A stretch of DNA of 64,000 bases, from contig NZ_CP110005.1 of NCBI RefSeq assembly GCF_025947225.1, forward strand, positions 1,302,001 through 1,366,000, given 5' to 3'. A program made the position numbers and the translations under genes. The notes below the pieces were generated by a model. That model had not been told where the DNA came from, made no database searches, and saw only the letters and a list, made by a program, of their open reading frames with translations. Source of the DNA: Flavobacterium sp. N2270 (GTDB taxonomy: Bacteria > Bacteroidota > Bacteroidia > Flavobacteriales > Flavobacteriaceae). This document shows, piece after piece, positions 39,640 through 40,837 of the stretch (its first letter is position 1; each line of letters begins with the position of its first letter).

Positions 39640-39647
39640 TAGTTTTG
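39640..39647 (+). promoter_or_regulatory. -7 promoter box of rpsU
   Basis: TAGTTTTG matches TAnnTTTG, giving a leader of roughly 25 nt to the ATG at 39677. The upstream 140 nt holds no gene; a weak hairpin GTCTTTTAT/ATAAAGGAC lies at about 39519-39542. Confidence 0.6.
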
Positions 39648-39660
39648 CACTCTTAACGAG

Positions 39661-39668
39661 AGGAGGTG
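39661..39668 (+). promoter_or_regulatory. Full Shine-Dalgarno sequence of rpsU
   Basis: AGGAGGTG, complementary to all eight bases of the anti-Shine-Dalgarno CACCUCCU, 8 nt before the ATG at 39677. I saw no comparable sequence before other genes in this window, whose starts are preceded by A/T-rich bases. Known for Flavobacterium johnsoniae: the anti-SD is hidden on the ribosome by bS21 with bS18 and bS6, and rpsU keeps an SD, consistent with autoregulation by bS21. Confidence 0.9.
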
Positions 39669-39676
39669 TCAAGATT

Positions 39677-39871
39677 ATGTTAATTATACCAATTAAAGAC
39701 GGAGAAAATATCGACAAAGCGCTAAAACGCTATAAGAGAAAATTTGATAAAACAGGAACTGTTCGTCAGTTACGTGCACGTCAACAATTCATTAAACCGT
39801 CTGTTACAAACAGAGCTAAAATCCAAAAAGCATATTATATTCAACGAATGAATGACGCTTTAGAAGGATAG
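39677..39871 (+). CDS. rpsU: 30S ribosomal protein bS21
   Basis: 64 aa. MLIIPIKDGENIDKALKRYK followed by FDKTGTVRQLRARQQFIKPS: the standard bS21 pattern with a basic C-terminal half. It binds near the 3' end of 16S rRNA. In Flavobacterium it helps sequester the anti-SD, so free ribosomes lacking bS21 can initiate at the strong SD of its own message; the SD seen here fits that feedback. Monocistronic: terminator-like hairpin 25 nt after the stop. Confidence 0.97.
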   Translation: MLIIPIKDGENIDKALKRYKRKFDKTGTVRQLRARQQFIKPSVTNRAKIQKAYYIQRMNDALEG

Positions 39872-39895
39872 TAATTATAGATTACTAAATAATAT

Positions 39896-39940
39896 AACCG
39901 TTAGATAATAAAGTGTAACTTTGTGTCTAGCGGTTTTTTT
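39896..39940 (+). terminator. rpsU terminator whose U-tract abuts the recombinase start codon
   Basis: AACCGTTAGA (39896-39905) pairs with TCTAGCGGTT (39926-39935), one G-U pair, 20-nt loop, then T-run to 39940. The ATG of the next gene is at 39941. The loop contains the next gene's -7 box. Confidence 0.75.
39916..39923 (+). promoter_or_regulatory. -7 promoter box of the tyrosine recombinase gene
   Basis: TAACTTTG, exact TAnnTTTG match, inside the loop of the rpsU terminator, 17 nt before the ATG at 39941. Transcription should start inside the 3' arm, so the recombinase message itself would not form the hairpin. Confidence 0.55.
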
Positions 39941-40837
39941 ATGGATTCAAATTTAAATGCATACCAGAATTACTTATTAAAAGAAAAGAACTACTCAGTT
40001 CATACAATAAAAGCTTATTTAAGAGATGTTAGTTCTTTTAAACAATACTTGGTGAATAATCACGATAATGTTCAGTTGGAAAATGTCAATTATTCTTTAA
40101 TCAGAAATTGGATTGTTTTTTTAGTTGAAAGTGATAATTCAAATATATCTGTAAACAGAAAAATTTCCTCGTTAAAATCATTCTATAGGTTTTTGCTAAA
40201 AATAAAAGCAATTCAACAAAATCCGCTTTTAAAACATAAATCATTGAAAACGGCAAAAAAAGTTCAAATTCCATTTTCTGAAAATGAATTAAATGATGTT
40301 TTTAATTTAAATATTTATAATTCTGATTTTGAGGGAATACGAAATTATTTAATTATAGAGCTTTTTTACACTACAGGAATAAGGAGAGCTGAATTAATAG
40401 GATTGAAATTAAGTAATGTAGATCTTTTAAATAAAACAATTAAGGTTTTGGGAAAAAGAAATAAGGAAAGAATTATTCCGCTTCTAGATTGTACTATAGA
40501 TTTAATTAAAAAGTATTTATTAGAAAAAAAAGGTATAGATAAAGCTATTGAGAATGACGTGTTAATTTTATCAAAAAAAGGTCATAAAATAAGCGAATCG
40601 TTTGTTTATAGATTAATAAATGATTACTTTAGTACTGTGTCTCAAAAAATAAAAAAGAGTCCGCACGTTCTTAGGCATTCATTTGCAACTCATTTGCTAA
40701 ATAATGGAGCTGATTTAAATTCAGTAAAAGAATTGTTGGGTCATTCAAGTTTGTCTTCAACGCAAATTTATACTCATAGCAGTTTGTCTGAGATTCAAAA
40801 TGTATATAAGAACGCGCATCCTAGAAACAAAAAATAA
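39941..40837 (+). CDS. Tyrosine recombinase, XerC/XerD-like
   Basis: 298 aa from the ATG at 39941; a GTG at 39923 lies in the promoter box and is rejected. N-terminal SAM-like core-binding domain (about 1-95: YLLKEKNYSVHTIKAYLRD). Catalytic domain: Arg at 148 (TTGIRRAELIGLK), Lys in KVLGKRNKERIIPL, HxxR at 242-245 (HVLRHSFATHLLNNGADL), His 268 (LLGHSSLSSTQIY) and nucleophile Tyr 277. It is the right size and has the conserved rpsU/hpf/tuf context of a chromosomal Xer recombinase that resolves chromosome dimers at dif. No attachment site or phage gene is nearby. Confidence 0.9.
   Translation: MDSNLNAYQNYLLKEKNYSVHTIKAYLRDVSSFKQYLVNNHDNVQLENVNYSLIRNWIVFLVESDNSNISVNRKISSLKSFYRFLLKIKAIQQNPLLKHKSLKTAKKVQIPFSENELNDVFNLNIYNSDFEGIRNYLIIELFYTTGIRRAELIGLKLSNVDLLNKTIKVLGKRNKERIIPLLDCTIDLIKKYLLEKKGIDKAIENDVLILSKKGHKISESFVYRLINDYFSTVSQKIKKSPHVLRHSFATHLLNNGADLNSVKELLGHSSLSSTQIYTHSSLSEIQNVYKNAHPRNKK

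Follow-up and report, generated by a model that had tools for sequence, protein, structure and literature searches.

The rpsU locus and its extended Shine-Dalgarno sequence

The rpsU gene of Flavobacterium sp. N2270 is located in the window, i.e. the whole 64-kb stretch of DNA that was analysed, and the genes between positions 39677 and 41175 are arranged in the order rpsU, a gene for a XerC-like tyrosine recombinase, which scored below the XerC equivalog cut-off, and the gene for the ribosome hibernation-promoting factor, followed by tRNA genes and tuf. The features assigned to rpsU are the following:

39640..39647, + strand: putative -7 promoter element of the TAnnTTTG type, TAGTTTTG
39658..39669, + strand: extended Shine-Dalgarno (SD) sequence GAGAGGAGGTGT, forming 12 contiguous pairs, one of them G-U, with nucleotides 1532-1543 of the 16S rRNA
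39670..39676, + strand: SD-to-start spacer of 7 nt, counted from the end of the 12-pair helix
39677..39871, + strand: rpsU, encoding ribosomal protein bS21 of 64 amino acids with Tyr54, scoring above the cut-off of the NCBIfam S21p equivalog
39896..39935, + strand: probable rpsU terminator, a stem-loop with a run of T residues behind it that extends to 39940 (39882-39941 folds with -18.9 kcal/mol)

The TAnnTTTG sequence at 39640..39647 presumably represents the -7 promoter motif of the Bacteroidota, and by eye TTTG occurs at roughly the same place in the rpsU leaders of relatives (best 80 of at least 540 loci). According to the main text of PMC9976891, the rpsU gene of F. johnsoniae is transcribed alone and its leader is predicted to comprise 25 nt; extrapolation from this length would place the transcript start of the present gene near 39652. 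Since the stem-loop and the T run are located 3' of rpsU, the gene probably constitutes its own transcription unit, as in F. johnsoniae. This terminator was not reported by a consensus terminator scan, which was restricted to loops of 3-8 nt. Additionally, the -7-like element TAACTTTG was detected inside the loop region of the probable terminator (39896-39941), and the recombinase gene begins directly thereafter at 39941, so that the rpsU terminator and the promoter of the next gene may overlap. A further recurrent pattern seen by eye 5' of rpsU, SD-less cases included, begins with TTTGCA, continues with CCC or CCT and then turns A-rich; it is perhaps the transcription start region of rpsU.

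A preceding sequence-only reading of this DNA had placed the octamer AGGAGGTG 8 nt (39669-39676) before the rpsU ATG at 39677 and had matched it to the anti-SD. The position was confirmed and the pairing turned out to be understated, as the eight bases (39661-39668) are the core of the 12-pair helix, in which the mRNA reads GAGAGGAGGUGU (39658-39669). The genome (G000) consists of one contig of 2.79 Mb with four 16S genes, and the 3' ends of the 16S rRNA are identical in the four rRNA operons, terminating in ...GGAACACCTCCTTTCT with nucleotides 1532-1544 being ACACCUCCUUUCU; CCUCC, the absence of which had been named as an argument against the reading, is thus present in all four genes. The duplex of the rpsU SD with the organism's own 16S tail yielded -20.9 kcal/mol and passes the limit of < -13 kcal/mol that defines an extended SD in the main-text survey of PMC9976891, the energies being calculated with RNAduplex here and with free_scan there. 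Runs of 12 pairs were found in none of 300,000 simulated 20-mers under either of two first-order models, one trained on initiation regions and the other on mock windows, and the longest pairing run was 7 among 358 sampled real starts and 8 among 358 mock windows.

Folding of the rpsU leader revealed no structure beyond chance (z 0.51); in the minimum-energy fold, the last five of the 12 SD bases pair with the start-codon region, and the other 7 stay unpaired. A candidate SD-masking hairpin of the form CTCT...AGAG (39650-39663) was rejected, because the inferred transcript starts inside it, its 5' arm is variable among relatives (by eye) and the leader fold does not exceed chance. Likewise, the two most frequent leaders had suggested that the helix always keeps exactly one G-U pair; this rule was abandoned in view of Watson-Crick-only leaders that form 12 pairs (G002, G018 and G148) or 10 or 11 pairs before a mismatch (G109, G102 and G167).

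Search for strong SD sequences elsewhere in the genome

Gene starts were sampled from the window and from twenty evenly spaced 20-kb stretches, together 464 kb of the 2.79 Mb, by taking the first ATG of open reading frames of at least 100 amino acids as the start, which provided 358 starts besides rpsU. The best energy among them was -8.1 kcal/mol. A value of -6 kcal/mol or lower was reached by 8 of 358 initiation regions as opposed to 21 of 358 mock windows, and a value of -9 kcal/mol or lower by 0 of 358 as opposed to 5 of 358. As strong SDs are rarer at initiation regions than in mock windows, they are avoided. The lack of an SD that the sequence-only reading had ascribed to eight other genes holds for tuf (-0.5 kcal/mol), nusG (1.8), rplK (-2.1), rplA (-1.5), rplJ (-2.9), rplL (-2.3), rpoB (0.0) and rpoC (-0.3), with a range of -2.9 to +1.8 kcal/mol, and additional values were 0.1 kcal/mol for rpsR and -4.8 kcal/mol for rplI. 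The statement that this genome region lacks SDs is accordingly true of the region and too narrow in its wording, since the whole sampled genome is SD-poor. Strong SDs on many other genes, which would have spoken against the reading, were not encountered, none of the 358 sampled starts reaching -9 kcal/mol.

A genome-wide search for the core RRGGRGGTG yielded 30 sites, comprising the complements of the four 16S genes, the rpsU site and 25 sites outside an initiation position. Most of these 25 sites are embedded in longer reading frames on either strand. For two of them (L147 and L168), a TTG or GTG close by would open a long frame, yet they lie within frames with an ATG farther upstream, as does a third site (L156); L174 falls into a frame of 100 codons whose coding value is doubtful, and no start in its range gives more than 15 codons. 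The proposed ranking of genes by SD strength therefore places rpsU first among the 358 sampled starts and as the sole RRGGRGGTG in initiation position, which makes it the outstanding SD gene of both sets, as far as ribosomal protein genes are concerned among the sampled ones. A short SD gene outside the 464 kb whose helix does not include the RRGGRGGTG core could escape both scans.

Conservation of the rpsU leader, the 16S tail and the tail-binding proteins

The protein bS21 of Flavobacterium sp. N2270 is identical in 52 of 63 aligned residues to chain 7jil_z, bS18 in 95 of 98 residues (counted by eye) to 7jil_w and bS6 in 92 of 111 residues to 7jil_k, the latter two being the closest solved chains; we take 7jil to be the ribosome of F. 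johnsoniae. Accordingly, the predicted proteins of the tail-sequestering pocket, bS21 with Tyr54, bS18 and bS6, are all encoded in this genome, Tyr54 being the single contact that was examined. In F. johnsoniae, this residue stacks on A1534, as described in the main text of PMC9976891.

A scan of named genomes confirmed at least 540 rpsU loci, and the best 80, many of them from genomes named Flavobacterium, were inspected as a set of near relatives that are not independent of each other. All 80 contain Tyr54, a helix of 11-13 pairs including G-U and a spacer of 7 or 8 nt. Their 20 distinct 25-nt leaders gave -19.0 to -21.4 kcal/mol, all computed with the tail of Flavobacterium sp. N2270. The closest locus among the matches listed (L065) belongs to a Flavobacteriaceae MAG, in which neither bS21 nor the 70 nt upstream differ from those of Flavobacterium sp. 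N2270.

The comparison was extended to an order-wide sample of 196 genomes, 180 of which contained a bS21 match. Besides that of Flavobacterium sp. N2270, 111 leaders (89 + 15 + 7) were collected, 107 from these 180 genomes and those of G203, G206, G211 and G223 from 60 sampled genomes of family f7. Tails were available for 78 genomes (53 + 20 + 5), of which 63 (48 + 12 + 3, Flavobacterium sp. N2270 included) provided the leader as well. A tail without a leader remained in 15 genomes, namely 11 of family f16 and G120, G172, G189 and G226, with no bS21 match in G189 and G226. In seven genes of f16 the assumed start codon was at least 3 nt off, and the respective windows therefore include the start codon.

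The tail ACACCUCCUUUCU was accompanied by a strong SD in 26 of 26 genomes (-17.6 to -21.4 kcal/mol), and the tail ACAUCUCAUUUUA by the matching leader AUGAGAUGU in 13 of 13, with -14.6 to -14.9 kcal/mol for the own tail compared with -4.5 to -6.3 kcal/mol for the canonical one. Read from both partners, the leader of another family has changed to suit an altered 16S tail, which is a compensating change. All 39 genomes with either intact 13-nt tail consequently had an extended SD, compared with 0 of 24 genomes with any other tail, the strongest value among the latter being -8.3 kcal/mol (G014). Ten of the 24 SD-less genomes retain ACACCUCC and differ only farther 3', by UUUUA in seven and UUUUU in three; several of these ten share genera and need not represent as many independent losses. 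Both the SD-bearing and the SD-less state occur in family f7. A prior prediction of an SD in G206 and of none in G203, G211, G223 and G226 agreed in the four testable cases, G226 falling outside the test for want of a bS21 match; the test was weak for G203, G211 and G223, which have congeneric genomes already found to be SD-less, only G206 representing a genus not yet sampled. A more general rule, by which any tail ending in UUUCU goes along with an SD, was discarded because G020 has the tail AUACCUCCUUUCU and no SD. Within the genomes compared, the association thus holds only for complete 13-nt tails. It was not encountered in the consulted passages of PMC9976891.

The main text of PMC9976891 describes an alternative anti-SD, UCUCA, and a covarying rpsU leader for the Chryseobacterium group, and this covariation was reproduced by all 13 genomes with ACAUCUCAUUUUA and AUGAGAUGU. 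From its 16S tail, we infer that family f5 corresponds to the Chryseobacterium group. The Chryseobacterium-type rpsU follows the same logic as the present gene in that leader and altered tail of the same genome are complementary, and differs in the tail ACAUCUCAUUUUA, the leader AUGAGAUGU, a weaker helix and residue 54, which is His in four and Tyr in three of seven proteins.

Probable autoregulation by bS21, and bS21 genes of phages

The SD helix, the rarity of SDs elsewhere, the pocket proteins and the conservation with a compensating change of leader and tail make it very probable that bS21 autoregulation operates in Flavobacterium sp. N2270, and the rpsU leader is in all likelihood its translational sensor. 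In complete 30S subunits, bS21 together with bS18 and bS6 would hold the 16S 3' tail, so that SDs are not read and nearly all genes do without them. A subunit lacking bS21 would expose a free tail and, by pairing with the extended SD of rpsU over 12 bp, would initiate there efficiently, until newly made bS21 occupies the subunits and the tail is sequestered once more. A model of rpsU autoregulation was reportedly put forward by Jha et al. in 2021. Genetic and biochemical proof of rpsU autoregulation by bS21-lacking ribosomes has been provided for F. johnsoniae, along with a survey of 200 Flavobacteriales (McNutt et al. 2023, main text of PMC9976891). The same claim in the sequence-only reading is thus well supported by the helix, the intact tails of all four operons and the pocket proteins, the step to this organism being a strong one by orthology with F. 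johnsoniae. The sequence shows the helix, its isolation among the examined starts, an unaltered tail, the proteins of the pocket and the conservation with a compensating change; that bS21-free subunits exist in Flavobacterium sp. N2270 and drive rpsU would follow from the findings in F. johnsoniae.

Many bacteria initiate more efficiently at a strong SD, and the rpsU SD could in principle merely boost expression, serving as a plain enhancer through which ordinary ribosomes produce bS21, a small and essential ribosomal protein, at a steady high level. The seeming equipment of rpsU with its own promoter element and terminator would fit such a role; however, tuf, rplL and rpoB, which are expected to be highly expressed, lack an SD, and bS21-containing ribosomes of F. 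johnsoniae read SDs poorly (main text of PMC9976891), which renders an enhancer free of feedback improbable. We regard it as similarly improbable that bS21-free ribosomes serve a wider regulon whose other SD genes were missed, a reading that draws on the partial coverage of the start sample (464 kb of 2.79 Mb) and on the single core used genome-wide. The core sites other than that of rpsU were accounted for by 16S complements and by 25 positions outside initiation regions, mock windows contain SDs more often than initiation regions do, and one such gene is typical across the 200 Flavobacteriales surveyed in PMC9976891. A chance match 5' of rpsU has nothing in its favour and can practically be dismissed, considering the 0 of 300,000 simulated windows with 12 pairs in each of two models, the helix retained by all 80 near relatives inspected (best 80 of at least 540) and its compensation in another family.

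The autoregulatory leader with its SD is therefore already known, and the present element is the orthologue of the proven one in F. johnsoniae. Both share the orthologous gene, Tyr54, an SD-poor genome, a short leader, apparent solo transcription and an extended SD near -20 kcal/mol that is the outstanding SD of the genome. They differ in the host only, and the likeness refers to these features rather than to a letter-by-letter comparison of leaders and tails. A more distant parallel in the main text of PMC9976891 is provided by yeast ribosomes lacking eS26, in which the loss of a protein at the equivalent site of the small subunit also alters the choice of mRNAs, although the protein is unrelated, no SD is involved, the targets are many and the outcome is a stress response instead of autoregulation. 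Clear cases of specialized bacterial ribosomes are few, and the present genome with its own 16S tail confirms one of them, the principle being that a ribosome without one protein selects the mRNA encoding that protein.

A scan of candidate viral contigs yielded 29 loci with bS21 genes of the Bacteroidota type (L286-L314). In 27 of these (L287-L313, 13 distinct proteins), Tyr54 is present and an SD is absent, with energies of -4.8 to +2.9 kcal/mol for the canonical and -0.7 to +1.9 kcal/mol for the alternative tail. Five of nine phage records were analysed (L335-L339), leaving out H4, which has the length and coordinates of H3, and H7-H9 with less than 40% identity. A strong SD was found in L337 (-12.1 kcal/mol) and not in the other four records (-5.1 to +2.0 kcal/mol); residue 54 is Tyr in four of the five, and in L335 a gap of one residue is followed by a Tyr that stands one position too early (by eye). 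An aromatic residue is described as conserved in phage bS21 in the relevant passages of PMC9723584, and phage bS21 is also discussed in those of PMC9976891; no statement on the presence or absence of SDs on phage bS21 genes was found in these passages of either paper. The absence itself is expected, since the genes of SD-poor hosts and of their phages are SD-less by default. Phage bS21 would merely stand outside the feedback loop.

The association of the SD with the 13-nt tail and the SD-less bS21 genes with Tyr54 on viral contigs may represent new side results. A tentative and rather doubtful extension is that Flavobacteriales keep the whole 13-nt 16S tail, beyond the anti-SD core, to serve the rpsU mRNA alone, SD and tail being lost jointly even where ACACCUCC is retained, and that phage bS21, with the tail-closing aromatic residue kept and an SD-less mRNA, would occupy ribosomes outside the feedback and shut off the host rpsU. 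The distal-tail result opens a natural approach to the question of what conserves the anti-SD in hosts where SDs are hardly read, and the phage comparison offers a testable idea on why phages of these hosts carry bS21. The remaining two loci of the viral-contig scan are of a different kind: L286 resembles a Chryseobacterium-type host gene, with His54 and the alternative SD at -14.6 kcal/mol, and L314 is only a partial relative.
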